Shown one piece after another: positions 3,301 through 36,529 of a stretch of DNA of 64,000 nucleotides (position 1 is its first letter; each line of letters opens with the position of its first letter). The position numbers were made by a program, and so were the translations under genes. The DNA is from Aureimonas sp. Leaf324 (GTDB taxonomy: Bacteria; Pseudomonadota; Alphaproteobacteria; Rhizobiales; Rhizobiaceae): contig NZ_LMOH01000025.1 in NCBI RefSeq assembly GCF_001423245.1, positions 1,329-65,328 on the forward strand, given 5' to 3'. Below the pieces are notes generated by a model, which saw only the letters and a list, made by a program, of their open reading frames with translations, did no database searches and was not told the DNA's origin.

Positions 3301-4206
3301 TCAGACCCTTTCCTTGGTGCCGCGCGCGGCGATCAGCCCTTGCGGGCGGAACAGGAGCACGAGGATCACGGCGGCGTAGACGAAGGCGTCGCGGAAGGCG
3401 CGGGCGTCGAGCGGCAGGGCGACCTGCATGACGACCGAGGCGGCGCCGAGGAGGAAGCCCGCGAGCACGGCGCCGGCCAAACTCCCGAGCCCGCCGATGA
3501 CGGTGGCGATGAAGGCCATCAGCATCAGCGAGGCGCCCATCTGGATGTCGACGGTGCCGGTCTGCGAGCCGAAGATCAGGCCGATCGCGGCGGCGAGCGC
3601 GCCCGACAGGGCGAAGGCCCCCATGATGACCCGGTTGGCCCTTACGCCCAGCATCCGGGCCATGGAGAAGTTCTCGGCCGCCGCGCGCATTTCCAGCCCG
3701 AAGCGCGTGCGCCGCAGGAACAGCGTCAGCGCGATCAGAATGACGACGGTGGCCACGATGGTGATGAGCTGGAGAAGCGGCAGGCGCGCGCCGAGGATCT
3801 CGACCGGCTGGGAGAGGCCCGGCAGGAGCGAGATCGACTTCGGCCGGCTCGTGAAGAGCATCAGGAGGAAGTAGCGGATCACGAAGCCGAGCGCGAAGGA
3901 GGCGATCATCATCGTGGCGGGGCTGGCGTGCCGGAAGCGCCGGAAGACGACGATCTCGCACAGGACCGAAAGCCCGGCGCCGACGAGAAGCACGAAGGGC
4001 ACGAGGAGATACCAGGGCAGCTGGCCGGCGAAGACGATCGCCATCGCATCCGTCGAGGGCCAGAGCAGCGCGAAGATCGAGAAGGCGATGACGTCGCCAT
4101 GGGCGAAGTTGACGAGGCGCATGACGCCGAAGATCAGCGCGATGCCGAGCGCGCCGAGGGCGTAGAGGGAGCCGAGCGAGAGCGCGTCGAAGACGACCTG
4201 CAGCAT
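3301..4206 (-). CDS. Liv-type ABC importer permease, LivH family
   Basis: 301 residues with about eight membrane segments. The N terminus (A-L-S-L-G-S-L-Y-A-L-G-A-L-G-I-A-L-I-F-G) and the V-N-F-A-H-G-D motif are typical of LivH. A R-A-A-A-E-N-F-S-M-A-R coupling loop is seen around residue 180. The gene begins 2 bp after the end of the LivF-like gene and is followed closely by livM, in the usual order for this transporter class. Confidence 0.88.
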   Translation of the reverse strand: MLQVVFDALSLGSLYALGALGIALIFGVMRLVNFAHGDVIAFSIFALLWPSTDAMAIVFAGQLPWYLLVPFVLLVGAGLSVLCEIVVFRRFRHASPATMMIASFALGFVIRYFLLMLFTSRPKSISLLPGLSQPVEILGARLPLLQLITIVATVVILIALTLFLRRTRFGLEMRAAAENFSMARMLGVRANRVIMGAFALSGALAAAIGLIFGSQTGTVDIQMGASLMLMAFIATVIGGLGSLAGAVLAGFLLGAASVVMQVALPLDARAFRDAFVYAAVILVLLFRPQGLIAARGTKERV

Positions 4207-7735: not shown

Positions 7736-9100
7736 TCAGTGGCTCAGCGCCGCCGCGTTGTCGGTGAGCCAGCCTTCCAGCCAGCGGGTGTGCACGTCTC
7801 CCGCGCGCACGGCCGGGTCGGCCGCGAGCGCCAGGAAGAGCGGCTTGGTGGTCTTCAGGCCGCCGATCTCTGTTTCGCGAAGCGCCCGGACCAGCCGGTC
7901 GATCGCCGCCTCGCGCGTTTCGCCGTGGACGATGAGCTTGGCGAGTAGCGAGTCGTAGAAGGGCGGCACCTGATAGCCGGGGTAGAGCATCGAATCGAAC
8001 CGCACGCCGGGTCCGCCGGGAATGCGAAGGGTCTCGACGGTGCCGGGGAACGGCGCGAAGTCGCGCGCCGGATCCTCGGCGTTGAGGCGCACCTCGATCG
8101 CGTGGCCCTTCACCGCGACGTCCGCCTGCTTGAGCCGCAGCGGCTCGCCGCCCGCGATCCGCAGCATCTCGGCCACGAGGTCGATGCCGGTGATCGCCTC
8201 CGTCACCGGATGTTCCACCTGGATGCGGGTGTTCATCTCGATGAAGTAGAAGCGGTCGGCGGCGTCGTCGTAGAGATACTCGACCGTTCCGGCGCCGGAA
8301 TAGTTGACGGCCTTCGCGAGCGCGACGGCCGAGGCGCAGAGCTCCTCGCGAAGCGCGGGCGACAGGGCGCGCGAGGGCGCCTCCTCCCAGACCTTCTGCC
8401 GGCGGCGCTGCAGCGAGCATTCGCGCTCGAAGCAGTGGATCGCGTCGCGGCCGTCGGCCAGCACCTGCACCTCGATATGCCGGGCACGGCCGATCACCTT
8501 CTCCATGTAGAGGCCGCCGTCGCCGAAGGCGGCGAGCGCCTCGGCCTCGGCCTGCGGAAAGGCATGGTCGAACTCGGCTTGCGAATGGGCGATGCGGATG
8601 CCGCGCCCGCCACCGCCCGCCGCCGCCTTGATCATCACCGGGAAGCCGGTCTCGGCGAGAACGGCGCGCGCCGCCTCGATGCCATCGACCCGGCCCTTCG
8701 AGCCCGGCACCACGGGAACGCCGGCTTTCGCGGCGGCTTCGCGCGCGGACACCTTGTCGCCCATCAGGCGGATCGCATCCCCGGACGGCCCGACGAAGAC
8801 GAGGCCGGCGGCCGTCACCGCGTCGGAGAACTCGGCGTTCTCGGCGAGGAAGCCGTAGCCCGGATGGACGCTGTCGCAGCCGGTGTCTGCCGCCGCCTTC
8901 AGGAGCGCCGGGATGCTGAGATAGGACTTCTTGGGCGCCGGCGGCCCGATCGCGACGGCCTCGTCGGCGAGCTGGACGTGGAGGGCTTGCGTGTCGGCCG
9001 CCGAATGGACGGCGACCGTCGCGATGCCGAGATCCTTCGCGGCCCGGATGATGCGCACCGCGATCTCCCCGCGGTTGGCGACGAGGAGCTTCTTGATCAT
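7736..9100 (-). CDS. Biotin carboxylase (AccC-like)
   Basis: 454 residues, the normal length of a stand-alone biotin carboxylase. It has the start K-K-L-L-V-A-N-R-G-E-I-A-V-R-I, H-P-G-Y-G-F-L-A-E-N, the ATP-grasp glycine loop A-A-A-G-G-G-G-R-G-I, E-R-E-C-S-L-Q-R-R and E-M-N-T-R-I-Q-V-E-H-P-V-T-E. All are canonical for ATP-dependent carboxylation of biotin. The start overlaps the carrier gene (ATGA). Because it sits between a carrier and PxpB/PxpC genes, with no acetyl-CoA carboxyltransferase genes here, it probably serves a dedicated carboxylase rather than lipid synthesis. Confidence 0.88.
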   Translation of the reverse strand: MIKKLLVANRGEIAVRIIRAAKDLGIATVAVHSAADTQALHVQLADEAVAIGPPAPKKSYLSIPALLKAAADTGCDSVHPGYGFLAENAEFSDAVTAAGLVFVGPSGDAIRLMGDKVSAREAAAKAGVPVVPGSKGRVDGIEAARAVLAETGFPVMIKAAAGGGGRGIRIAHSQAEFDHAFPQAEAEALAAFGDGGLYMEKVIGRARHIEVQVLADGRDAIHCFERECSLQRRRQKVWEEAPSRALSPALREELCASAVALAKAVNYSGAGTVEYLYDDAADRFYFIEMNTRIQVEHPVTEAITGIDLVAEMLRIAGGEPLRLKQADVAVKGHAIEVRLNAEDPARDFAPFPGTVETLRIPGGPGVRFDSMLYPGYQVPPFYDSLLAKLIVHGETREAAIDRLVRALRETEIGGLKTTKPLFLALAADPAVRAGDVHTRWLEGWLTDNAAALSH

Positions 9101-9333
9101 CAGTCGAGGTCCGCGAGTGGCGCGCCGGCCATCACCGGCTCCTCGTTGTCGGCGACGAAGCGCACGTTCGCGCCGGCGACCTCCGAGCGCACCTCGTGGA
9201 ACGACTTCATCACCTCGACGAGGCCGATGACGTCGCCGACCGCCACCGCATCGCCGTCGGCCTTGTAGGGCGGCTTGTCGGGCGAGGCGCTGCGATAGAA
9301 CGTGCCGGGAAGCGGCGAGAGGATCTGCGGCAT
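9100..9333 (-). CDS. Small biotinyl-carrier (biotin/lipoyl domain) protein
   Basis: 77 residues forming a single biotin/lipoyl attachment domain. It has L-S-P-L-P-G-T-F-Y-R at residues 5-14 and G-D-V-I-G-L-V-E-V-M-K-S at residues 33-44; Lys43 is the predicted biotinylated residue. The usual A-M-K-M/L is replaced by V-M-K-S. It lacks the Pro/Ala-rich N-terminal region of AccB, so it is a minimal carrier. It overlaps the biotin carboxylase gene by 4 nt, so the two are almost surely partners. Confidence 0.82.
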   Translation of the reverse strand: MPQILSPLPGTFYRSASPDKPPYKADGDAVAVGDVIGLVEVMKSFHEVRSEVAGANVRFVADNEEPVMAGAPLADLD

Positions 9334-9378
9334 GTCAGGAACTCCGAGGAACGGGGCTTCGGGCGAAGGCTTGCAAGT

Positions 9379-10101
9379 TCAGTGCCAGGGCGCGATCGCG
9401 GCGCGGACGGCGCGCGCGATATCGACGGCGTTGGGTGTGTCGGAATGGACGCAGATCGTCTCGGCCTTAGCCGGGAAGCGGCTGCCGTCGCTGGCGGTGC
9501 CTTCCTCGTCGCGCAGCGCGCGCAGGCAGTACTCGGCCATCAGCGCGGGGTCCTTGGCGTCGTGCTCGCGCGTCACGATCAGCTTGCCGCCGGGCGCATA
9601 GTCGAGGTCGGCGTAGAACTCGTGCACGAAGGGAATGCCGCGCGCCTGATAGACGGTCTCGTGCAGGGTGCCGGTCATGCCGAAAAGCGGCACCCCGAAC
9701 ACGGCCGCCGCGTCGCAGATGCCGTGCGCGACCTCCTCCTGCCGGGCGGCCATCCCGTACAGGCTGCCGTGCGGCTTGATGTGGTTGAGCACCATGCCCT
9801 CGGCGTCGAGAAAGCCCTTCAGCGCGCCGGTCTGGTAGATCACGAGATTGGCGACCTCTTCCCGCGAGAGCTTCATCTCCCGGCGGCCGAAGCCCGCGAG
9901 ATCGGGCAGCGAGGGATGGGCGCCGACCTTCACGCCGTTTTCCTTGGCGCGGCGTACGGTCTTGCGCATATGGTCGGGGTCGGAGGCATGGAAGCCGCAG
10001 GCGACGTTGGCGACGTCGATCAGCGGCATCAGCCCGGCGTCGTCGCCGAGGACGTAGAGGCCGAAGCCCTCGCCCATGTCGCAGTTGAGTGTGACCCCCA
10101 T
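9379..10101 (-). CDS. pxpA: PxpA / LamB-YcsF family hydrolase
   Basis: About 240 residues of the LamB/YcsF family. It has L-N-C-D-M-G-E-G-F-G at residues 5-14, A-N-V-A-C-G-F-H-A-S-D-P near residue 31, G-A-H-P-S-L-P-D-L-A-G-F-G-R-R near residue 60 and a late E-T-I-C-V-H-S-D-T-P. PxpA is the hydrolytic subunit of bacterial 5-oxoprolinase. GGGGGAG lies just upstream of the ATG at 10101; longer in-frame starts run into the AT-rich promoter region. It is the first gene of the minus operon and is divergent from a LysR regulator gene. Confidence 0.85.
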   Translation of the reverse strand: MGVTLNCDMGEGFGLYVLGDDAGLMPLIDVANVACGFHASDPDHMRKTVRRAKENGVKVGAHPSLPDLAGFGRREMKLSREEVANLVIYQTGALKGFLDAEGMVLNHIKPHGSLYGMAARQEEVAHGICDAAAVFGVPLFGMTGTLHETVYQARGIPFVHEFYADLDYAPGGKLIVTREHDAKDPALMAEYCLRALRDEEGTASDGSRFPAKAETICVHSDTPNAVDIARAVRAAIAPWH

Positions 10102-10123
10102 CGTCTCCCCCGCCGTCGAAACT

Positions 10124-10158
10124 GCCAAAATTTTGGCGTTGCAATTTTTTTGCGCAAC
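10124..10158. promoter_or_regulatory. Probable LysR operator: adjacent dyads
   Basis: Between the divergent pxpA and lysR genes sits an AT-rich stretch unlike its surroundings. It contains a perfect 14-bp palindrome (GCCAAAATTTTGGC, 10124-10137) directly followed by an interrupted dyad GTTGC-N11-GCAAC (10138-10142 and 10154-10158). Paired dyads of this sort are what a LysR regulator would use as recognition and activation sites. The assignment to the neighbouring regulator is inferred. Confidence 0.5.
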
Positions 10159-10234
10159 TTCGACACGTTGTGAAATAGTCATTTTTTGAAAATGATATCG
10201 AAAAAACCGATACGCTCGCCGGGTAAGGGTTTCG

Positions 10235-11140
10235 ATGACCATCACGCTGCGACAGCTCGACTATTTCATCGCCACCGCCGACAGCGGGCAGGTCAGCCAT
10301 GCGGCGGTGGAGCTCAACATCTCGCAGTCGGCTGTCACCGCGGCGGTGAAGTCGCTCGAGATCGAGCTCGGCGTGAAGCTCTTCGAGCGCACCCATTCCG
10401 GCGTGCGGCTGACGATGGAGGGCACGCGCTTCCTGGAGCGGGCCCGCGCCATTACCGGCGCCGTCGCCGCCGCGCTGCAGAGCCCGCTCCGCGACCGCGA
10501 GGGCCAGGCCGGCACGCTGCGCCTCGGCATGACCTACACGGTGGTGGGGTACTTCATGTCCCGCTACTACGCGCGCTTCCGCAAGCTCTATCCGCAGATC
10601 GAGGTGGAGGTGGCCGAACTGCCGCGCGATGCACTGGAGGCGGGGGTCGTCGACGGCGATGTCGACATGGCGGTGATGCTGGTCTCGAACCTTGCGCGCA
10701 CCGGCGAGATCGAATGCGAGACGCTGGTGCGCTCGCGCCGCCGCCTGTGGCTGCCGGCCGATCACCATCTCCTCTCACGGGCCGCGATCACCCTCTGCGA
10801 CGTCGCCGCCGAGGACTACGTGATGCTGACCGTGGACGAGGCGAAGACCACCGCGGTCCGCTACTGGGACGCCGCCGGCCTCCGGCCGCGACCCGTCCTC
10901 ACCACGGCCTCGGTCGAGGCGGTGCGCTCGCTGGTGGCGTCGGGCATGGGCGTCACCATCCTGTCCGACATGGTCTACCGGCCGTGGTCGCTCGAAGGCC
11001 AGCGCATCGAGGTGCGCTCGCTGGTGGAGCCGATCCCCAGCATGGACGTCGGCCTCGCCTGGGCCCGTGCGCGCGACATCCCGCCCCAGGCCGCCGTGTT
11101 CCGCGCCTTCATGTCGGTGACGATGGGTGGCGGCGGATGA
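10235..11140 (+). CDS. LysR-family transcriptional regulator of the pxp operon
   Basis: 301 residues. The N-terminal winged helix-turn-helix is clear: T-L-R-Q-L-D-Y-F-I, then V-S-H-A-A-V-E-L-N-I-S-Q-S-A-V-T-A-A-V-K-S-L-E at about residues 22-45. It is followed by the L-F-E-R-T-H-S-G-V-R wing and a substrate-binding-like domain. TAAGGG lies 4 nt before the ATG. It is divergent from the PxpA/biotin carboxylase/Liv operon and the 133-bp gap holds dyad operators, so it very likely controls that operon. Confidence 0.88.
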   Translation: MTITLRQLDYFIATADSGQVSHAAVELNISQSAVTAAVKSLEIELGVKLFERTHSGVRLTMEGTRFLERARAITGAVAAALQSPLRDREGQAGTLRLGMTYTVVGYFMSRYYARFRKLYPQIEVEVAELPRDALEAGVVDGDVDMAVMLVSNLARTGEIECETLVRSRRRLWLPADHHLLSRAAITLCDVAAEDYVMLTVDEAKTTAVRYWDAAGLRPRPVLTTASVEAVRSLVASGMGVTILSDMVYRPWSLEGQRIEVRSLVEPIPSMDVGLAWARARDIPPQAAVFRAFMSVTMGGGG

Positions 11141-11159
11141 CGGCGCCGATCCCGGAAGA

Positions 11160-11918
11160 TCAGCCCGCCGCCGCCAGCGAGGCGTCCTTCTCCTCGAGGT
11201 GAAGGAACGCCCCGTCGAACTGGCCGAGACGCGACAGCGAATTCCAGTTCAGAACGTCGACATGACCCTTCTCCATGCGGATCAGCTCGCGCGCGCGCAG
11301 CGCCTGGACCGCCTTGTTGATGCTGACGAGCGTAAGCCCGAGCACGTCGCCGATGAGCTGCTGCGACAGGGCGAGATCGAAGCGGTCGTCGTCGACGAGG
11401 CCGACCACCTTCAGCCGCAGATACATCTCGCACAGGAAATGGCCGAGGCGCGCCTCGGCCTCCAGCTGCCCGTTGCGGAAGATTGCGGCCCGGTGGAGCG
11501 CCGCGTCGATCAGGCTCTCGCGCCAGAGCGAGGAGGCGAGCAGCGGCGAGGCATCGCAGACGCGGCGTAGCTCGGCATGCGGCACGAAGGCGATGCGCGA
11601 GGGCACCACCGTTTCGAGGTCGTGGTCCATGTGCGGCACCTGCAGGCTCTGCAGGTCGGGCATGTCGCCGGGCACGTGGATCGACAGGATCTGCCGCTGG
11701 CCGTCCACCGTGTAGCGGGAACGCGCGAGAAGCCCCTGCAGGATCAGGCACGAGTGCTTGGGCTTATCACCCTCGCGCACGAAGCTGCGGCGCGCCGGGA
11801 CGTCCTCAACGCGCCAGGGAAGGCTCGCCAAAAGGTCGCGCTCCGCCGCACCGAACGGCTTGTGCGCCGCGAGGCGCAATTGCAGGAGGCGCAGGGCATC
11901 GTCGTTTGCTGGGATCAT
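11160..11918 (-). CDS. Crp/Fnr-family transcriptional regulator
   Basis: About 252 residues. Residues 20-140 form the cyclic-nucleotide-binding-like beta barrel (F-V-R-E-G-D-K-P, then a Y-T-V-D-G-Q-R-Q-I-L-S-I-H-V-P-G-D motif). A dimer helix follows, and then a C-terminal winged helix with L-S-Q-Q-L-I-G-D-V-L-G-L-T-L-V-S-I-N-K at about residues 185-203. No N-terminal Fnr cysteine cluster is seen. The ATG at 11918 has a GGAG-type site in front. It is divergent from the glycosyltransferase cluster across 315 bp and may control it. Confidence 0.88.
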   Translation of the reverse strand: MIPANDDALRLLQLRLAAHKPFGAAERDLLASLPWRVEDVPARRSFVREGDKPKHSCLILQGLLARSRYTVDGQRQILSIHVPGDMPDLQSLQVPHMDHDLETVVPSRIAFVPHAELRRVCDASPLLASSLWRESLIDAALHRAAIFRNGQLEAEARLGHFLCEMYLRLKVVGLVDDDRFDLALSQQLIGDVLGLTLVSINKAVQALRARELIRMEKGHVDVLNWNSLSRLGQFDGAFLHLEEKDASLAAAG

Positions 11919-12233
11919 CTCCGGCTCCTCACGAAATGATCGGGCTTGCCCGTGTATGTAGCCGACTGCGGAGACTTGCGACAGCGCTGTTCCGGATCCT
12001 CGGCCCGGCGTCGTCGTCGGCGCGACCGCACGCGGCTCTCCGCTCAGGCTCGCCTCGTGGCCCCGCCGGGCCGGATCGGGACCGTCGATCCTTAGCCGCG
12101 CAGATCTTAGCAGCGACAGGAAACATTGGCACGCCTCGGCAACCGGGCCCACTGTCGGAGCGGGTCGCCAACGCCACCTGCGAGGGACGGGATCCGCGCC
12201 CCGCATCGCGGCCAACGGAAGGAGCGTTGCCGG
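11919..12233. other. Divergent intergenic region, crp-like gene / GT2 cluster
   Basis: 315 bp without a convincing gene. It should carry the promoters for the Crp/Fnr regulator and for the four-gene cluster to its right. I find no perfect Crp or Fnr half-site pair (TGTGA or TTGAT dyads). The only clear element is AAGGAG (near 12219), the ribosome-binding site of the glycosyltransferase gene. Confidence 0.5.
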
Positions 12234-13322
12234 ATGACGGGTTCCCTCACAGCTCTTTCCTGGCAACCGGTGGTCGCGGTTCCCGTCCGCAACGAGGCGC
12301 GGCGCATCGCGGCGCTGCTGCGCGCCCTGAACGGCCAGTCGTGGGGCCAGGGCGCCGAACAGGTGCCGGTGGTGCTCGTCCTCAACAACTGCACCGACGG
12401 GACCCGGACGATCTGCGAGGCGGCCCTGCGCGACCTTCCCCGCCTGCGAGCCGAGGTGATCGACGTCGATCTGCCGGCCGCGAGCGCCCATGTCGGCACG
12501 GCACGGCGCATGGCGATGGACCGCGCGGCAGCGCTCTGCACGCGCGGCCCTGGCGCGGTCCTGACCACGGATGCAGACGCCGTGCCCGACCGCGACTGGA
12601 TCGCGGCGACCGTCCGGGCGCTCGATCGCGGCGCGGACCTCGTCGGCGGCAAGCTCACCGGCAACCGCGAGGAGGAGGAGCGCCTCGGCCCCGCCTTCAA
12701 CGCCAGGGCGGGCGCGGCCGCCGCCTATGCCGCGCATTGCGACCGCCTCGCCGCCCTCATCGACCCGCTCGACCACGACCCTTGGCCCCGCCACGCCGAC
12801 CATACGGGCGGGAGCCTCGCCATCCGCACCGATCTCTACCGCGCCCTCGGCGGCCTGCCGCCCCTGCCCCGGCGCGAGGACCTCGCCCTCGTCAGCCTCG
12901 CCCGCGCGGCGGGCGCAAGGCTCGTGCACCCGCTCGACGTGCGGGTCGAGGTGTCGGCGCGCCTCATCGGCCGGGCCGAAGGGGGCATGGCCGACTGCCT
13001 GAAGGCCTGGATGCGGGCCGAGAGCGAGGGGCGCCCCCATCTCGTGGAGGCGCCGGCCCGTGTCGAGGCGCGGCTGAAGCGGCGCCGGGCGGTGCGCGAT
13101 CTTGTCCGCCTTGCGGCTCCCGCGCGCGAGCGGGCCGCGCGGTCGCTCGGGCTCGATCCGAGGACGCTTCGGGACGCACCGGAAGGGCATGCGGCAGGCT
13201 GGCTCGTGGAGCGCTTCGCACCGGACGAGCCGGACGCCGAGGCCACCGTCCCGATCGGCGAGGCGCTGGCGGCGATCGGCGGCATGATCGCAACCTACGA
13301 AGGGACCATGCGTGCGGCCTGA
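12234..13322 (+). CDS. Family 2 glycosyltransferase
   Basis: 362 residues, apparently cytoplasmic with no evident membrane segments. The GT-A fold is shown by V-V-A-V-P-V-R-N-E-A-R-R at about residues 13-24, V-V-L-V-L-N-N-C-T-D-G-T, the D-A-D metal motif at residues 113-115, and the G-G-S-L-A-I-R-T plus R-R-E-D-L-A-L acceptor and catalytic regions later. Unlike NodC or polysaccharide synthases it lacks C-terminal membrane helices, so it may add a single sugar. AAGGAG precedes the ATG. It overlaps the next gene by 11 nt, making one transcription unit with the flavoprotein, deacetylase and methyltransferase genes. Confidence 0.82.
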   Translation: MTGSLTALSWQPVVAVPVRNEARRIAALLRALNGQSWGQGAEQVPVVLVLNNCTDGTRTICEAALRDLPRLRAEVIDVDLPAASAHVGTARRMAMDRAAALCTRGPGAVLTTDADAVPDRDWIAATVRALDRGADLVGGKLTGNREEEERLGPAFNARAGAAAAYAAHCDRLAALIDPLDHDPWPRHADHTGGSLAIRTDLYRALGGLPPLPRREDLALVSLARAAGARLVHPLDVRVEVSARLIGRAEGGMADCLKAWMRAESEGRPHLVEAPARVEARLKRRRAVRDLVRLAAPARERAARSLGLDPRTLRDAPEGHAAGWLVERFAPDEPDAEATVPIGEALAAIGGMIATYEGTMRAA

Positions 13323-14409
13323 TCGCTTCGAGGCCGGCGAGTCCGGCGACGACCTCCACCGCGCCATCGCGGCGGACGCGGCCCTGCGCGACCGCGACGG
13401 CGCCTTTCCCGAGCGGGCCTTCGAGGCCTTGCGGCGGGCCGGCCTCGTCGCCGACCCGCCGCTGCGCGACGCCGAGATCGGCACGCTCCTTCGACGCCTC
13501 GCCGCCGTCGGCCGCGCCGATCTGGCCGTCGGGCGGATCTTCGAGGGCCATGTCAACGCCCTCGCGCTGATGCGCCGGCACGGCACACCCGCCCAGCGCG
13601 CGCGCTTCGACGCGCTGGCGCGCGAAGGCGGCGTCTTCGGCGTCTGGAACACCGACAAGCCGGACGATCCGCTGCGGCTCGACGGCGGGCGTCTGCGGGG
13701 TGCCAAGACCTATGCCTCCGGCGTCGACGGCCTGTCGCACGCGATCGTCACGGTCAGCGAGCCGGCGGGACGGGTGATGATCGTCGTGCCGCTCGCCGGC
13801 CTTCCCGTCGACCGGTCCTGGTGGCAACCGATGGGCATGCGCGCGTCGGGAAGCCACGTGGTCGATTTCACCGGGCTCGAGGTCACGCCCGACAGGATCC
13901 TCGGGGCTCCCGACGCCTATCTCGAGGCGCCGTGGTTCTTCGCCGGCGCGATCCGCTTCGTCGCGGTGCAGGTCGGCGGCATGCACGCCGTCTTCGACGC
14001 CGCGGTCGCCCATCTCCGGGCAAGCGGCCGGATCGGCGACCCCTACCAGGCGCAACGCGTAGCCCGGATGGGCGCGGCGGTGGAAGGCGGCTACGGCTGG
14101 CTCGACCGGGCGGCTGCCGAATGGGCCGCGGTGGCCGCCCGCCGGGCCCCGCCCGAGCCCCTCGTCGCCACCGCGAATGCCGCGCGCGGCGCGGTCGAGG
14201 CGGCGGCGCTCGGCGTGCTCGAAGAGGCCGAGCGCGGGGTCGGCGCCGCCGGCCTCATCGCCCCGCATCCGCTGGAGCGTCTCATGCGCGACCTTCGCAC
14301 GTATCTGCGCCAGCCCAATCCCGATGGCGCGCTGGCCGGTCTCGGCGCGGCGATCGCCGACGGCCGCTGGGAGCCCGGCCAGCGTTTCACTGACGGGCCA
14401 TGCCGATGA
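13312..14409 (+). CDS. Acyl-CoA-dehydrogenase-like flavoprotein, possibly an oxygenase
   Basis: 365 residues of the acyl-CoA dehydrogenase superfamily, starting at a GTG inside the previous gene. The middle beta domain (G-A-K-T-Y-A-S-G-V-D-G near residue 123, then W-W-Q-P-M-G-M-R-A-S-G-S) and the C-terminal helical domain are present. Near the C terminus R-D-L-R-T-Y-L-R-Q-P-N-P-D-G replaces the E-G-T motif that carries the catalytic glutamate in many dehydrogenases. That ending resembles flavin monooxygenases of the DszC/HsaA type. The substrate is unknown. An oxidation or hydroxylation of the glycosyltransferase product is possible but unproven. Confidence 0.75.
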   Translation: MRPDRFEAGESGDDLHRAIAADAALRDRDGAFPERAFEALRRAGLVADPPLRDAEIGTLLRRLAAVGRADLAVGRIFEGHVNALALMRRHGTPAQRARFDALAREGGVFGVWNTDKPDDPLRLDGGRLRGAKTYASGVDGLSHAIVTVSEPAGRVMIVVPLAGLPVDRSWWQPMGMRASGSHVVDFTGLEVTPDRILGAPDAYLEAPWFFAGAIRFVAVQVGGMHAVFDAAVAHLRASGRIGDPYQAQRVARMGAAVEGGYGWLDRAAAEWAAVAARRAPPEPLVATANAARGAVEAAALGVLEEAERGVGAAGLIAPHPLERLMRDLRTYLRQPNPDGALAGLGAAIADGRWEPGQRFTDGPCR

Positions 14410-15116
14410 CCGAGGCCCTCGACCCCGCGACGCTCGACGCCCAGCGGGTCATCGTGGTGGCGCCCCATCCCGACGACGAAGCGCTCGGCTGCGGCGGCCT
14501 CCTCTGGCACCTCGCGCGCCGCGGGCGTCTCGTCCATGTCCTGTTCGTCACCGACGGCGGCGCCTCGCACCTCCATTCGCCGACCTGGCCGCGCGCGCGG
14601 CTGGCGGCGACGCGCGAGGCGGAAGCCGAACGCTCCCTGCACGAACTCGGCCTTGGAGCGGCGCCGCGCACGTTCCTGCGACTGCCCGACGCGGATCTGC
14701 CCCCGCACGGCTCGCCCGGCGACGCGGCGCCGCTTCAGACCGTCACCGCCCTCGTGCGGACGGTCGAGCCCGATCTCGTGCTTTTGCCGTGGCGGCGCGA
14801 CCCGCACCGCGACCACCGCGACGCCTGGAGCCTCGTCACCCGCGCGCTGAGCGAGGCCGGGATGGCGCCCGCAACGCTGGAATACGCGATCTGGCTCGAC
14901 GAGATCGGGGCCCCGGATGACCACCCCCGCCCCGGCGAGATGGAGCGGGTCGGCTATGCGATCGGGGATGCGCTGCCGGCCAAGCGACGGGCCGTGGCCG
15001 CGCACCAGAGCCAGTGCGGCGCGCTGATCCACGACGACCCAACCGCCTTCTGCCTGACGGAGGCGACGATCGAGCGCCTCACCGGTCCCGTGGAATTCTA
15101 CTGGCGCCCGCTGTGA
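14406..15116 (+). CDS. PIG-L (LmbE-like) family zinc deacetylase
   Basis: About 236 residues. The zinc-binding motif A-P-H-P-D-D-E sits at residues 19-25 and a second ligand region D-P-H-R-D-H-R-D near residue 138. Members remove N-acetyl groups from GlcNAc-type glycoconjugates (MshB, BshB, PIG-L). Two ATGs 6 nt apart are possible starts; the second (14406) overlaps the previous stop as ATGA, the coupling used through much of this genome. The gene ends in a GTGA overlap with the methyltransferase. Confidence 0.85.
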   Translation: MTEALDPATLDAQRVIVVAPHPDDEALGCGGLLWHLARRGRLVHVLFVTDGGASHLHSPTWPRARLAATREAEAERSLHELGLGAAPRTFLRLPDADLPPHGSPGDAAPLQTVTALVRTVEPDLVLLPWRRDPHRDHRDAWSLVTRALSEAGMAPATLEYAIWLDEIGAPDDHPRPGEMERVGYAIGDALPAKRRAVAAHQSQCGALIHDDPTAFCLTEATIERLTGPVEFYWRPL

Positions 15117-15715
15117 CCAAGGCCATCGACCTCGACGGCTTCGAGGCGAAATTTCGAGCTTTGGGCGATCCGTGGGACTATCGGACCTCGCGCTTCGAGG
15201 CGGTCAAGCGCGCCGTGCTGATCCGCGCCTGCGGGGCGGCCAAGCTCGGGCGCGGCCTCGAAGTCGCCTGCGCGATCGGCGAGACCTCGCGGGCGCTCGC
15301 CACGCGCTGCCTGACCCTTGTGGCGACCGACGGCGCGCCGACGGCGCTCGCCACCGCGCGCGAGCTGACACCCGGACACGCGCGCATCGACTATCGCCAC
15401 GCCGTCCTGCCGGCCGGGGTGCCGGCGGGGCCGTTCGACCTCGTCGTCGTCTCGGAGATCGCCTATTACCTCTCGCCCGGCGATCTCGACCGCCTGGCCG
15501 CGCGCCTCGCGGATGCGCTGGCGCCGGGCGGGCGGATCGTCGTCCTCCACCATGTCGTCGCCTTCGACGACACGGCGCAGCCGCCGGCGCTCGCGCAAGG
15601 GCGGCTGTGCCGCCGGCTGGCGGGGCGCCTCGCCAACGTCGGGGCGCGACGGCACGGGCGCTACGCGGTCGCCGTGTTCCGGCGGCCGGCGGGGCCTTCG
15701 AGGCGCAAGAGCTGA
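15113..15715 (+). CDS. NodS-like SAM-dependent methyltransferase
   Basis: About 200 residues. The N-terminal F-R-A-L-G-D-P-W-D-Y-R-T-S-R-F-E block with K-R at residues 35-36 is characteristic of the NodS family, whose founding member N-methylates the deacetylated terminal glucosamine of Nod factors. The SAM-binding motif I is L-E-V-A-C-A-I-G-E-T-S, and V-V-S-E-I-A-Y-Y-L and L-A-P-G-G-R-I-V-V follow. The GTG start overlaps the PIG-L stop. Coming directly after a deacetylase gene suggests N-methylation of a freed amine on a glycoconjugate. Confidence 0.82.
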   Translation: MTKAIDLDGFEAKFRALGDPWDYRTSRFEAVKRAVLIRACGAAKLGRGLEVACAIGETSRALATRCLTLVATDGAPTALATARELTPGHARIDYRHAVLPAGVPAGPFDLVVVSEIAYYLSPGDLDRLAARLADALAPGGRIVVLHHVVAFDDTAQPPALAQGRLCRRLAGRLANVGARRHGRYAVAVFRRPAGPSRRKS

Positions 15716-15724
15716 CGACGCAAA

Positions 15725-15756
15725 CCCGCCGCCGTCCCGTCCGGGACGGCAGCGGG
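15725..15756. terminator. Hairpin between converging methyltransferase and sugar permease genes
   Basis: An 8-bp perfect stem (15731-15738 with 15743-15750, loop GTCC) extended outward by 5 more pairs after a single mismatch. It lies in the 67-bp gap between converging genes. There is no clear T run, so it is a probable rather than certain terminator. Confidence 0.5.
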
Positions 15757-15782
15757 CCGATCGCGTGACGATCGAGCCGTCG

Positions 15783-16764
15783 TCAGGCGCTGGCGCGCTT
15801 GCGGCCGAAGGCGACGGCGAGGACGATGAGGGCGCCCGCCACCATGTTCTGCTCGCTGACGTCAAGGCCCATGATGATGAGCCCGTTGTTGATCGTGCCG
15901 ATGAGGAGGGCGCCGACGAAGGTGCCGATGATCGTCGCCTTGCCGCCGAAGAGCGAAGTGCCCCCGAGGATGACGGCCGCGATCGCCGCGAGCTCGGCGC
16001 CGGTGCCGAAGTTGTAGCGCGCCGTCTGCATCATGCCGGAATAGAGCATGCCGGCGACCGCACCCGCCGCGCCCGAGATCAGGAAGCAGTAGAGCTTGAT
16101 GCGCTTGACCGGGACACCGGAATACTGCGCTGCCACCCGGTTGCCGCCGGTCGCCAGCACCTGCCGGCCGAAGGACGTGTAGCGCAGGACGACGTGGCCG
16201 ACGGCGGCGATCACGAGCGACCAGAGAAACAGCGAGGGAATGCCCGCCACGTTGCCTGAGCCGAAGATGCCGGTGAAGGTGGTGTCGGAGATCGCCACGG
16301 GCTTGGTGTAGGTCAGGCGCATGTCGAGGCCGCGCACGAACTGCATCATGCCGAGCGTGACGAGGAACGAGGGAATGTTGACGACGGTGACGAAGAAGCC
16401 GTTGATCGCGCCGACCGCGAGCCCCGCGAGGATCGCCGCCGCGACGCCGCCGACGATGCCGAAGCCCGCCTGCATCACGAGCGCGGCGACGAGGGCCGAG
16501 AGCGCCGCCGTCGAGCCGATCGACAGGTCGAGCTCGCCTGCCGCGATGACGAAGGTCATCGCGATCGCCATGACCGCGATCATCGAGGTCGTGCGCGTGA
16601 TGTTGAAGAGGTTGGCGGTGGTCAGGAAGCCCTTGTCGCCGATCGTGACGGCGAAGAAGAGCAGGACGGCCGCGAAGAAGAAGTAGACGACGAAGTCGCT
16701 CCACTGGATCGTCGAGCGCCGGACCGCCGGTTTGGTGGCGGCTGCGGCCGGGGCCGCCGATGCG

Positions 16765-34368: not shown

Positions 34369-35417
34369 CCCTCGATCTCGAAGCCCTGCGCGCCCGCTTC
34401 GGCGGCGACAACGAACGCCGCATCTACGACGAGGGCTTCGCCCGCGTCGCCTCGAAGCTCTTCGATCCGAAGGGCACGCGCGTCGCCCCGTTCGCCGGCG
34501 TGCCGACGCTGCTCGACGCGCCGCACCGGCCGACCGACTGGTCGGCGCCGGACTTTTCCGGCCTCGACGTCGCGCTTCTCGGCGTGCCGATGGATCTCGG
34601 CGTCACCAACCGCAACGGCTGCCGCTTCGGGCCGCGGGCGCTGCGCACCATCGAGCGCGTCGGGCCCTACAACCACGTCCTGAAGACGATGCCGACGCTG
34701 GACCTTGCCGTCGCCGACATCGGCGACGTGCCCTTCCGCTCGCGCTTCGACCTCGCCACCTCGCACGAGGACATCGAGGCGACGCTGGCCAAGATCGCGG
34801 GCGCCGGCGTCATCCCGCTCTCGGTCGGCGGCGACCATTCGATCTCGCTGCCGATCCTTCGCGCGCTCGGGCGGGAGCGGCCCGTCGCGATGATCCACAT
34901 CGACGCCCACTGCGACACGAGCGGCCCCTTCGACGGCTGCAAGTTCCACCACGGCGGGCCGTTCCGCCAGGCGGTGCTCGACGGCGTGCTCGATCCCACG
35001 CGCACCATTCAGATCGGCATCCGCGGCTCGTCCGACTACCTCTGGGAGTTCTCGACCGAGTCCGGCATGACCGTGATCCACGCCGAGGAGATCACGGAGC
35101 TCGGCATTCCCCGAATCGTCGAGATGGCGAAGCGGACGGTCGGCGACGCGCCGGTGTATCTCTCCTTCGACATCGACAGCCTCGACCCGGCCTTCGCGCC
35201 CGGCACCGGCACGCCCGAGATCGGCGGCCTGTCGACGCGCGAAGCGCAGAGCCTCCTGCGCGGGCTCGCCGGCATCCGCCTCGTCGGCGGCGACCTCGTC
35301 GAGGTCGCGCCGCAATACGACGCCACCACCAACACCGCCCATGCCGGCGCCCAGATGCTGTTCGAGATCCTGAGCCTCGTGCCCTTCTCGCCCGGCCGCG
35401 CCGGCGTCCCATCCTGA
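34365..35417 (+). CDS. Ureohydrolase (agmatinase / guanidinobutyrase family)
   Basis: 350 residues, longer than E. coli agmatinase owing to an N-terminal extension of about 60 residues. All manganese-site motifs are present: G-G-D-H-S at 155-159, D-A-H-C-D at 180-184 and S-F-D-I-D-S-L-D-P at 267-275. The enzyme should hydrolyse a guanidino compound to urea and an amine. The 4-nt ATGA overlap with the aminotransferase couples the two. Guanidinobutyrase or a guanidino-acid hydrolase fits the context better than arginase, but this is inference. Confidence 0.88.
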   Translation: MTLDLEALRARFGGDNERRIYDEGFARVASKLFDPKGTRVAPFAGVPTLLDAPHRPTDWSAPDFSGLDVALLGVPMDLGVTNRNGCRFGPRALRTIERVGPYNHVLKTMPTLDLAVADIGDVPFRSRFDLATSHEDIEATLAKIAGAGVIPLSVGGDHSISLPILRALGRERPVAMIHIDAHCDTSGPFDGCKFHHGGPFRQAVLDGVLDPTRTIQIGIRGSSDYLWEFSTESGMTVIHAEEITELGIPRIVEMAKRTVGDAPVYLSFDIDSLDPAFAPGTGTPEIGGLSTREAQSLLRGLAGIRLVGGDLVEVAPQYDATTNTAHAGAQMLFEILSLVPFSPGRAGVPS

Positions 35418-35443
35418 CGATCCACCGAACGGAGACACGCGAC

Positions 35444-36529
35444 ATGACGACTTCCATCGCCCATCCGACCCGCCGCACGGTGCTTCTGGGCGCGGCCGCC
35501 GGCGCCGCGACGCTGGCCATGCCCGGCATCCTGCGCGCGCAGGACCGCTCGCTGAAGGTCGGCGTCTACGGCGGCTACTTCAAGGATTCCTTCGACGAGA
35601 ACGTCTTCCCCGCCTTCACGAAGGCGACGGGCATCGCGGTGGAGGGCATCGCCGAGCCGACGGGCGAGGCTTGGCTCGTGCAGCTGGAGCAGGCGGCGCG
35701 CGCCAACATCGCGCCGGCCGACGTGTCGATGATCAGCCAGGTCGCCATGCGCAAGGGCCTGTCGACCGAGCTCTGGGCGCCGCTCGACCTCGCGCGCATC
35801 AAGAACGCCAAGGACATCCTGCCGCCGTTCCTCGTGAAGTACCCGGACGAGCGGGTGGCCGGCGTCGGCGCCGTCGCGTGGTACATCAACCTCGTCACCA
35901 ATACCGAGGCCTACCCGACCGCACCCGACAGTTGGGCCGCCTTCTGGGATCCGGCGAACGAGGGCAAGCTCGGCCTTCTCGCCCTCGTCTCGAACTCGTT
36001 CCTCCTCGAGGTGACGGCCAAGACCTTCTTCGGCGGCACTGAGGTGCTCGACACCGAGGAGGGCATCCTCAAGGTGATGGACAAGCTGGCCGAGGTGAAG
36101 CCGAACGTGCAGCTCTGGTATCGCGACGAGGCGCAGTTCGAGGCGGCACTGAAGTCGGGCGAGATCCCGATGGGCCAGTACTACCACGACGTGACGGGCC
36201 TTGCGGCCTCCAAGGGCGCGCCGGTCCGCTCCACCTTCCCGAAGGAAGGCGGCATCTCGGATTCGGGCTGCTGGGCCGTCAGCAAGGCCTCGACGAAGCT
36301 CGACATCGCGCACGAGTTCATCGACTACATGACCCAGCCCGCGACGCAGGCGCTGCTCGCCCGCAAGGTCGGCACCGCGCCGGTGATCCAGCGCTCGCTC
36401 CTCGACCTGACGGACGCCGAGTTCGCGGCCGTCTCCTCCACCTCCGAGCCGATCGTGCCGCGCTACGACCTCTACGTGTCGAAGGCCGACTGGCTGAACC
36501 AGAAGTGGACCGAGCTGATCGTCGGCTGA
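35444..36529 (+). CDS. Polyamine-type ABC importer, periplasmic binding protein (Tat signal)
   Basis: 361 residues. The N terminus T-R-R-T-V-L-L-G-A-A with twin arginines at 10-11, a hydrophobic stretch and an A-Q-D cleavage region indicates Tat export. The mature part resembles PotD/PotF-type family 1 binding proteins: S-L-K-V-G-V-Y-G-G-Y-F, F-T-K-A-T-G-I-A-V, and P-D-S-W-A-A-F-W-D-P in the middle. GGAG lies before the ATG at 35444. The ligand is probably a cationic amine or guanidino compound, judging from the ureohydrolase upstream. Confidence 0.85.
   Translation: MTTSIAHPTRRTVLLGAAAGAATLAMPGILRAQDRSLKVGVYGGYFKDSFDENVFPAFTKATGIAVEGIAEPTGEAWLVQLEQAARANIAPADVSMISQVAMRKGLSTELWAPLDLARIKNAKDILPPFLVKYPDERVAGVGAVAWYINLVTNTEAYPTAPDSWAAFWDPANEGKLGLLALVSNSFLLEVTAKTFFGGTEVLDTEEGILKVMDKLAEVKPNVQLWYRDEAQFEAALKSGEIPMGQYYHDVTGLAASKGAPVRSTFPKEGGISDSGCWAVSKASTKLDIAHEFIDYMTQPATQALLARKVGTAPVIQRSLLDLTDAEFAAVSSTSEPIVPRYDLYVSKADWLNQKWTELIVG

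Follow-up and report, generated by a model that had tools for sequence, protein, structure and literature searches.

The locus raises the question of what is made by four overlapping plus-strand genes (12234-15715) which code for a glycosyltransferase, a flavoprotein, a predicted deacetylase and a methyltransferase. They lie in the window, by which is meant the whole analysed stretch of 64,000 nucleotides from Aureimonas sp. Leaf324. An earlier sequence-only reading had called these genes, their strands and their overlaps, and after re-derivation of the coordinates and matching against Pfam all of them were found where it had placed them (Table 1). Successive genes overlap by 11, 10 and 4 bases. 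The DxD motif of the glycosyltransferase (TTDADA) and the HPDDE motif of the PIG-L protein, both pointed out in that reading, are present and are invariant or nearly so in the alignments of their relatives. The conserved non-coding block upstream of the first gene has, by eye, a weaker likeness in L003 and L004. The neighbours in the window, also judged by eye, are an ABC sugar transporter, a LysR regulator, a biotin carboxylase and a LamB/YcsF-like protein, and none of these is a stress gene.

Table 1. Genes and upstream element of the operon region in the window.
Feature	Position	Strand	Description
Crp/Fnr regulator, divergent	11160..11918	-	HTH_Crp_2 (PF13545) 43.2 bits and PF00027
Conserved non-coding block 5' of the GT2 gene	12101..12129	+	CAGATCTTAG...GAAACATTGG; aligned in the window, L001 and L002
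GT2, soluble GT-A-fold glycosyltransferase	12234..13322	+	362 aa; PF00535 (Glycos_transf_2) 39.3 bits
Flavoprotein, acyl-CoA-dehydrogenase fold without the catalytic Glu	13312..14409	+	365 aa, GTG start; Acyl-CoA_dh_2 27.4 bits
PIG-L (LmbE-type) predicted N-deacetylase	14400..15116	+	238 aa; HPDDE and DxHxDH motifs; PF02585 91 bits
NodS-like class I SAM methyltransferase	15113..15715	+	200 aa, GTG start; PF05401 (NodS) 41.8 bits

The sequence-only reading had staked itself on the four genes being conserved together in other genomes, and they are. A profile of the flavoprotein gave matches of at least 262 bits in 37 of 397 genomes of the order, the next match being at 90 bits, and all four genes were present in 27 of the 37 order-survey loci found by the flavoprotein alone (the locus of the window excluded). 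Since the matches are this clean and the other three genes accompany them this often, the module is far above chance. All four genes were also found in 17 of the 20 phylum-survey loci located by the flavoprotein alone, in 12 of 17 plasmid loci and in 30 of 31 loci located by PIG-L, a 32nd (L011) being skipped because its flavoprotein match is below 100 bits. Counts are given per set; some records are probably duplicated across the sets (L052 is L023, L142 is L002, L143 is L003, L144 is L004 and L146 is L007), L033 is the window itself, and the totals of 109, 91 and 129 loci used below include repeated records. Moreover, the protein distances co-vary in all six pairs (r 0.58-0.84, 43 loci), to a degree reached in 0 of 1000 permutations, part of which could be accounted for by shared species history alone. 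The four-gene set is present also in Deinococcus, Nostoc and Acinetobacter, and the module is found on chromosomes and plasmids of at least four phyla, often being plasmid-borne. In the genus Aureimonas the flavoprotein was found in 21 of 21 genomes, in two arrangements. These comparisons support the four genes as one conserved unit, and the operon is best explained as a compact version of a biosynthetic module that is widespread and has moved horizontally. No paper on the four-gene set was found in the literature, and no record or paper found gives a named product for the module. The divergent Crp/Fnr gene is present as described, but its membership of the cluster did not hold: apart from the window, this divergent placement next to the four genes was seen in no loci but the nearest ones in Aureimonas (L001, L002 and L142, of which L142 is probably the same record as L002), and the gene is therefore rejected as a fixed partner of the module. 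When Crp/Fnr homologues were sought at a permissive E of 1e-10, they turned up in 18 of the 109 loci, with the window counted and L023 and L052 probably being one record.

The survey of what lies beside the set, proposed in the same reading, was run, and catalase, OtsA and sucrose-phosphate-synthase-like genes are commoner near the recurring set than by chance. A long catalase is located within 10 kb of the module in 9 of 63 genomes (about 0.27 expected), OtsA (trehalose-6-phosphate synthase) in 4 of 63 (0.27 expected) and a sucrose-phosphatase-domain protein in 3 of 63 (about 0.06 expected, same formula, by hand), counts that are non-independent because related genomes are included, three of the nine catalase cases being from one genus. 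OtsA adjoins the Acinetobacter copy. Further, sucrose-phosphate-synthase-like frames were found in 15 of 129 loci scanned, and four loci have frames for CBM48/alpha-amylase (GlgX-like) or 4-alpha-glucanotransferase (MalQ-like) proteins, a count made with no control. Genes for sucrose, trehalose and alpha-glucan protectants are in this way recurrent neighbours in several lineages, although those sugars, as known, need no such module, and a common product is presumed. A sucrose-phosphate-synthase-like gene with four more glycosyltransferases lies beside the module in one Aureimonas arrangement; in the genome of the window, which has no long catalase, this sucrose-type glycosyltransferase cluster is on a separate contig (C26). 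A sucrose core cannot be general, since the Aureimonas genome G753 carries the module with no sucrose-phosphatase-domain protein and 48 of the 63 genomes are likewise without one (it is present anywhere in 15). This stress and disaccharide-synthase setting and the second cluster on C26 had been missed by the sequence-only reading, as had the PIG-L-less genomes described below.

An EcfG-like promoter, following the motif GGAAC-N16-18-GTT as given in PMC6599016, stands upstream in 13 of 91 loci, where 0.85 would be expected, related genomes again being included. No such motif was found before the module genes of the window nor before nine C26-type clusters, and EcfG control of the window's own copy is therefore rejected. 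The EcfG-dependent glycosyltransferase genes 3505-3509 of that paper could be a candidate Sphingomonas counterpart of the extended cluster.

Our preferred reading, to which we give a probability of about one half, is that the module makes a stress-linked small glycoconjugate through GT2, PIG-L, methylation and oxidation in turn, and that it has been moved horizontally and has a protective role. The same neighbourhood can also be read as that of a surface or exported glycan, in which an amino-sugar side chain is added to an exopolysaccharide or oligosaccharide, deacetylated and methylated while the extra glycosyltransferases build the chain. Many loci do have three to four extra glycosyltransferases adjoining the module, two Deinococcus loci have glf together with another glycosyltransferase, an LTA-synthase-family protein lies about 4-5 kb off in Roseomonas, and ABC transporters are present in some plasmid loci. 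This is nevertheless rather unlikely, as the Pfam domains of the module are all those of soluble enzymes, the compact four-gene form in the window is without an adjoining glycan gene and, the LTA-synthase-family protein of Roseomonas aside, the annotation of the plasmid neighbourhoods read shows neither a polymerase nor a flippase nor an undecaprenyl-phosphate transferase (L040 being unannotated). It is unlikely, too, that the genes are a secondary-metabolite or lipid-headgroup tailoring cassette with a non-protectant substrate, whose stress neighbours merely reflect genomic or plasmid islands. The frequent plasmid location, the variable neighbours and the occurrence of the EcfG-like motif in a minority of loci would agree with such a cassette, but the retention of the flavoprotein in all 21 Aureimonas genomes is unusual for a dispensable metabolite, and it is specifically catalase and synthases of sugar protectants that lie nearby, across several bacterial families.

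In the stress-linked glycoconjugate reading, the oxidation would fall to the flavoprotein. Its description as acyl-CoA-dehydrogenase-like is right for the fold and for the Pfam match (cut-off 22.7 bits) but not for the dehydrogenase type, as the catalytic base is missing and the protein is nearer to DszC and the nitrososynthases. The catalytic Glu of acyl-CoA dehydrogenases, which we place within the EGT motif or immediately ahead of the arginine of helix G, was sought by aligning alignment A1 with seven other superfamily members, among which L116-L118 carry the EGT motif. None of the 22 rows of A1 has Glu in this column, which holds Arg (LRQP/LRQA) in 21 of them and Leu in Rubrobacter, and the helix-G position is also without Glu; with this residue lost, acyl-CoA dehydrogenation is rejected. 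In the sequence search with the window protein, TdsC, DszC, a probable monooxygenase and the nitrososynthase DnmZ came ahead of the first acyl-CoA dehydrogenase. The profile search placed DszC and methanesulfinate monooxygenase at the top, and in it several annotated acyl-CoA dehydrogenases outranked the nitrososynthases. The structural model (pLDDT 88.2) has mostly monooxygenases as its top Foldseek matches, with equal TM-scores for acyl-CoA dehydrogenases and monooxygenases. The protein thus resembles most closely the class D flavin monooxygenases (DszC, methanesulfinate monooxygenase) and the nitrososynthases (KijD3, DnmZ), and its oxygenase activity is putative. DszC and its relatives lead the profile matches and are also found among the top fold matches, and the dehydrogenase Glu is absent. 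It differs from them in its identity of about 19-26% over the fold and in its own signatures, the LRQP/LRQA motif which replaces EGT, and RxxEGH. None of the recurrent neighbour families was recognised as a flavin reductase; there are single cases only, an FMN reductase at L049 and an NADPH-dependent oxidoreductase at L036.

In case of PIG-L, the Pfam score against a cut-off of 28.2 bits and the HPDDE metal motif place the protein in its family, and P22, H23, D25-E27, H136, D138 and H139 are invariant in alignment A3. The best named family is BshB1 (70.8 bits against a cut-off of 182.5), with weaker matches to a glucosamine-6-phosphate deaminase-like family, BshB2, Mca and MshB (21.2 against 224.35). 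The Rubrobacter set has, in place of PIG-L, a polysaccharide deacetylase (PF01522, NodB type) immediately ahead of the flavoprotein, and the 14.7 kb read there contain no annotated PIG-L; in Gloeothece a single protein combines GT2, NodS-like and PF01522 domains. Because of this substitute and this fusion, deacetylation appears to be a real step. In five genomes, four from a single genus plus G680, the flavoprotein, the methyltransferase and GT2 are retained with no match to profile A3 anywhere at E 1e-10; all five hold PF01522 proteins, none of them tied to the module. Deacetylation is therefore either not obligatory or done by another enzyme.

Glycosyl transfer and then deacetylation of a small GlcNAc conjugate by a PIG-L enzyme is also the plan of bacillithiol (BshA/BshB) and mycothiol (MshA/MshB) synthesis, where BshA and MshA are of GT4 type. 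A pathway of this kind to a low-molecular-weight thiol or redox cofactor, with its later steps encoded elsewhere, would be in keeping with the BshB1-nearest PIG-L and the oxidative-stress neighbours. It is very doubtful, however, as the module has a GT2 enzyme and, in addition, a methyltransferase and a flavoprotein which fit neither pathway as we know them; synthesis of bacillithiol or mycothiol itself is rejected, the BshB1 and MshB scores being far under their cut-offs.

The GT2 score is above the Pfam cut-off of 23.3 bits and, with the DxD motif, assigns the protein to its family; D113, D115, E215 and D216 are invariant in alignment A7 (one row of the search profile A4, L051, is a different glycosyltransferase and was kept). 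No PDB match was obtained by sequence at E 0.01. Its AF2 model (pLDDT 88.5) retrieved generic GT-A enzymes in Foldseek at TM of about 0.4-0.5, including TarS and mannosylglycerate synthase, and this fold search names no donor sugar. The methyltransferase had been called NodS-type, and its PF05401 score and PDB match to NodS (3ofj, beside 4isc) bear out the likeness; Methyltransf_25 is also matched, at 42.3 bits, and the NodS equivalog of NCBIfam at 54.8 bits against a cut-off of 300. In the tree, the Gloeothece fusion domain and one Rhizobium row share a group (92/93) with three NodS rows, and the window falls in a different starred clade, of 15 rows (100/100), apart from authentic NodS. The tree is unrooted and, because its outgroups (two NRPS domains and a Gloeothece methyltransferase) are on long branches, no claim is made on the root or on NodS descent. 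Of the small N-deacetylated, N-methylated glycoconjugate proposed earlier, the conserved unit stands and the deacetylation appears to; we infer that the methyl acceptor is N rather than O and that the donor is an amino sugar.

The Nod-factor-like logic seen by the sequence-only reading is plausible as chemistry, since glycosyltransfer, N-deacetylation and NodS-type methylation are encoded together as for NodC, NodB and NodS, with a NodB-type enzyme in Rubrobacter. A lipo-chitooligosaccharide or Nod-factor-like signal as product is nonetheless highly improbable, and Nod-factor synthesis is rejected, because no NodA acyltransferase or NodC is annotated among the neighbours of the plasmid copies whereas the nod loci L113 and L114 show both, the methyltransferase is under the NodS cut-off and outside the NodS group, the deacetylase has the PIG-L fold, the GT2 is soluble, the flavoprotein is extra, and the module occurs also in Deinococcus, Acinetobacter and Nostoc.

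In the pathway proposed for the stress-linked glycoconjugate, whose step order is presumed, the soluble GT2 would transfer an N-acetylated amino sugar onto an acceptor saccharide, PIG-L would take off the acetyl group, the NodS-like enzyme would methylate the freed amine, and the flavoprotein would oxidise what results, its most likely chemistry being that of a flavin monooxygenase which attacks N or C. The acceptor in Aureimonas is probably an oligosaccharide begun by the sucrose-phosphate-synthase-like enzyme and the four further glycosyltransferases, and the most likely role of the product is protection against drying, osmotic or oxidative stress. It can even be speculated, as a long shot, that the product is a sucrose- or trehalose-type oligosaccharide with an N-methyl amino sugar, N-oxygenated by the nitrososynthase-like flavoprotein to a hydroxylamine or nitrone, which acts as a radical scavenger and represents an unknown protectant class in bacteria that withstand drought, UV and radiation, ranging from Aureimonas to Deinococcus and Nostoc.

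With its flavoprotein in all Aureimonas genomes surveyed and its spread over several phyla, the module would fill a large gap in bacterial stress metabolism. If the reading is true, a small molecule would have a share in desiccation and oxidative tolerance alongside trehalose, sucrose and catalase, and the logic of Nod-factor synthesis, amino-sugar deacetylation followed by methylation, would be in use well outside symbiosis.

The four genes of the module were found to overlap by 11 (GT2/flavoprotein), 10 (flavoprotein/PIG-L) and 4 bases (PIG-L/methyltransferase), and both the coordinates and the Pfam assignments agree with the sequence-only reading of four overlapping genes and a Crp/Fnr gene directed away from them. 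The same reading counted the Crp/Fnr gene as a cluster member, which is corrected here, since homologues were observed in 18 of 109 loci at a loose threshold. The window (G000:C25) belongs to an Aureimonas-type genome, the nearest retrieved relatives being Aureimonas records. The 12-16 kb stretch has the highest G+C of the window (74.5%). A non-coding block lying about 105 bases upstream of the GT2 start is conserved in Aureimonas relatives and has shown no sigma-70-like match. A second PIG-L domain of the genome is located away from the module, within a 625-residue frame.

Coordinates of the module and of related features in the window and in retrieved loci
Feature	Sequence	Coordinates	Strand or direction	Remark
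GT2	window	12234-13322	+	Pfam confirms
Flavoprotein	window	13312-14409	+	Pfam confirms
PIG-L	window	14400-15116	+	Pfam confirms
Methyltransferase	window	15113-15715	+	Pfam confirms
Crp/Fnr gene	window	11160-11918	away from module	Pfam confirms
Conserved non-coding block	window	12101-12129
Second PIG-L domain	L034 (G000:C10)	35300-35641
Sucrose-phosphate-synthase-like protein and four glycosyltransferases, window's genome	L147 (G000:C26:297000-315500)	8189-16260		cluster adjoining module in type B relatives
Fusion protein, Gloeothece plasmid	L109	5955-9431
Module genes, Acinetobacter soli plasmid	L110	5213-11294
Long flavoprotein genes, Deinococcus	L035; L043; L044	6684-9023; 4705-7068; 4702-7050
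Flavoprotein match with internal TGA	L069 (G349:C12)	496286-497305

The module is a real, widely conserved and apparently unnamed biosynthetic unit, and no paper on this gene set was found in a full-text literature search. Joint conservation in other genomes, on which the sequence-only reading had staked its proposal, was observed in four sets of loci, which overlap in that some loci of different sets are probably the same records. The PIG-L protein query found 32 loci in named genomes; of the 31 that were counted, 30 have the full series GT2, flavoprotein, PIG-L, methyltransferase in this order (L011, with a flavoprotein match under 100 bits, was left out, and L001 stops at a contig edge). 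The flavoprotein profile alone was run on whole genomes to remove query bias. In the order survey 37 of 397 genomes (38 places) matched at 262 bits or more, the next match being 90 bits, and the tally of 67 at E 1e-20 takes in ordinary family members; all four genes are present in 27 of 37 places, excluding the window's own. The phylum survey gave matches at 1e-28 in 34 of 398 genomes, 26 of them new, and 17 of the 20 loci retrieved from the new genomes are complete. Among plasmid loci the figure is 12 of 17, the exceptions being D. radiodurans (methyltransferase 3.5 kb off, no GT2 seen), Roseomonas (GT2 absent nearby), Methylobacterium (flavoprotein alone), Gloeothece (a distant relative) and Rubrobacter. 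On the Acinetobacter soli plasmid the flavoprotein, PIG-L, methyltransferase and glycosyltransferase lie close to a trehalose-6-phosphate synthase, with transposase genes nearby. Over 43 loci, inter-locus distances co-vary in all six protein pairs (r 0.58-0.84, a level that none of 1000 permutations reached), which can partly be explained by shared species history; the main evidence for a unit is the repeated adjacency.

The deacetylase is not constant among copies of the module. In Rubrobacter a PF01522 (NodB family) polysaccharide deacetylase immediately precedes the flavoprotein, with no PIG-L annotated within the 14.7 kb read, and in Gloeothece one 1158-residue protein combines GT2, NodS-like and PF01522 domains; these two cases suggest deacetylation as a step alongside glycosyltransfer and methylation. 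PIG-L was not beside the flavoprotein in ten survey genomes; it is encoded elsewhere in five, and no match to the PIG-L profile at E 1e-10 was found in the other five, four of one genus (L053-L056) and G680, which count against a fixed deacetylase role. PF01522 proteins are present in these five genomes and likewise in 11 of 14 control genomes.

The sequence-only reading took the flavoprotein for an acyl-CoA-dehydrogenase type. In the sequence search with the window's protein, TdsC, DszC, a probable monooxygenase and the nitrososynthase DnmZ rank before the first acyl-CoA dehydrogenase. The 22-member profile places DszC (8.9e-29) and methanesulfinate monooxygenase at the top, with several annotated acyl-CoA dehydrogenases above the nitrososynthases. 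In the fold search with the predicted structure (pLDDT 88), the putative dehydrogenase 5gj7, the flavin-containing monooxygenase 5z8t, a probable monooxygenase of mycobacteria and DszC come out best, and KijD3 and dehydrogenases have similar TM-scores. The family was further aligned with seven other superfamily members, three of which (L116-L118) carry the EGT motif; this motif and helix G we take to be the catalytic Glu positions of acyl-CoA dehydrogenases. The family reads LRQP or LRQA at the former, Glu being replaced by Arg in 21 of 22 rows and by Leu in one, and has no Glu at the latter in this alignment; R75 and H80 do not vary, and E78 hardly does. Because of this kinship, the fold matches and the loss of Glu, an acyl-CoA dehydrogenase is most unlikely, and monooxygenase or N-oxygenase would be the likeliest activity. 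Three Deinococcus loci have a longer flavoprotein gene, of about 780 codons, which encodes an additional N-terminal part; L035 and L044 contain a frame, approximately placed, with a match to the family 1 glycosyl hydrolase that L043 encodes separately, and Pfam names no such domain in the long L035 protein. One flavoprotein match, in L069, has an internal TGA.

The module methyltransferase (METHYLTRANSFERASE) is NodS-like (PF05401, 41.8 bits; PDB matches 4isc and 3ofj), its NodS equivalog score of 54.8 bits being far under the cut-off of 300. A Bradyrhizobium homologue query returned module members, similar methyltransferases, one fusion protein and rhizobial true NodS among the 60 of 181 records listed. 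A tree of 66 rows, its root not fixed, joins three NodS rows, the Gloeothece fusion domain and one Rhizobium row in a group (92/93) that is separate from the clade of the window's protein.

In the window's genus the flavoprotein is present in 21 of 21 genomes, at seven compact type A places and 15 of type B, G762 carrying both. Of the six type A places besides the window's, five were read, and each has the complete set. Type B, read at 15 of 15 places, consists of flavoprotein, PIG-L and methyltransferase; 14 places also have a convergent GT2, and at the remaining one, L131, the other three genes lie on another contig (L154). In 11 of 15 type B places the module is adjoined by more glycosyltransferases and by a sucrose-phosphate-synthase-like protein that also carries a phosphatase domain; this protein is named only "like" because its synthase domain reaches 438 and 426 bits, under the equivalog cut-off of 576. 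Exactly one such protein was found in 20 of 21 genomes (E 1e-20), G753 having the module and none at this threshold. In nine genomes, including the window's, it lies away from the flavoprotein, clustered with the same four other glycosyltransferases; for one of them, GT_c, the Novosphingobium relative gave no Pfam match. As this cluster holds the genes found beside type B modules, the window's genome probably carries the pathway split into two pieces.

Neighbour families across the 109 loci include YghA-type SDR (17), long catalase (14), DUF892 (12), LigD (7), Ku (4) and additional glycosyltransferases (17-18). CBM48/alpha-amylase or 4-alpha-glucanotransferase frames, GlgX-like and MalQ-like, are close to the module in four loci (L095, L099, L100, L106; counted without a control). 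Gene positions in 63 whole genomes served as control; within 10 kb of the flavoprotein, long catalase occurs in nine (about 0.27 expected), OtsA in four (0.27 expected) and a sucrose-phosphatase-domain protein, encoded in 15 of the 63, in three (G349, G517, G577; about 0.06 expected, same formula by hand), counts that are not fully independent because the genomes are related. An EcfG-like promoter precedes 13 of 91 loci against 0.85 expected from shuffles (background 0.70 per 10 kb over all loci); none was found upstream of the window's module. In Sphingomonas melonis, EcfG is reported to control catalases, Ku, GlgX and the glycosyltransferase gene run 3505-3509 (PMC6599016), a regulon that would agree with the setting of the module.

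The earlier idea of a small glycoconjugate holds good in outline, with the flavoprotein type, the regulator and the biological setting corrected. Every chemical step is read from the enzyme families, direct observation being at the level of genes. In the reading that fits best, the GT2 would put an N-acetylated amino sugar onto a saccharide, probably a sucrose-type oligosaccharide in the window's genus; PIG-L would remove the acetyl group, the NodS-like enzyme would N-methylate the amino sugar and the flavoprotein would oxidise the product, which would serve in drying, osmotic or oxidative stress.
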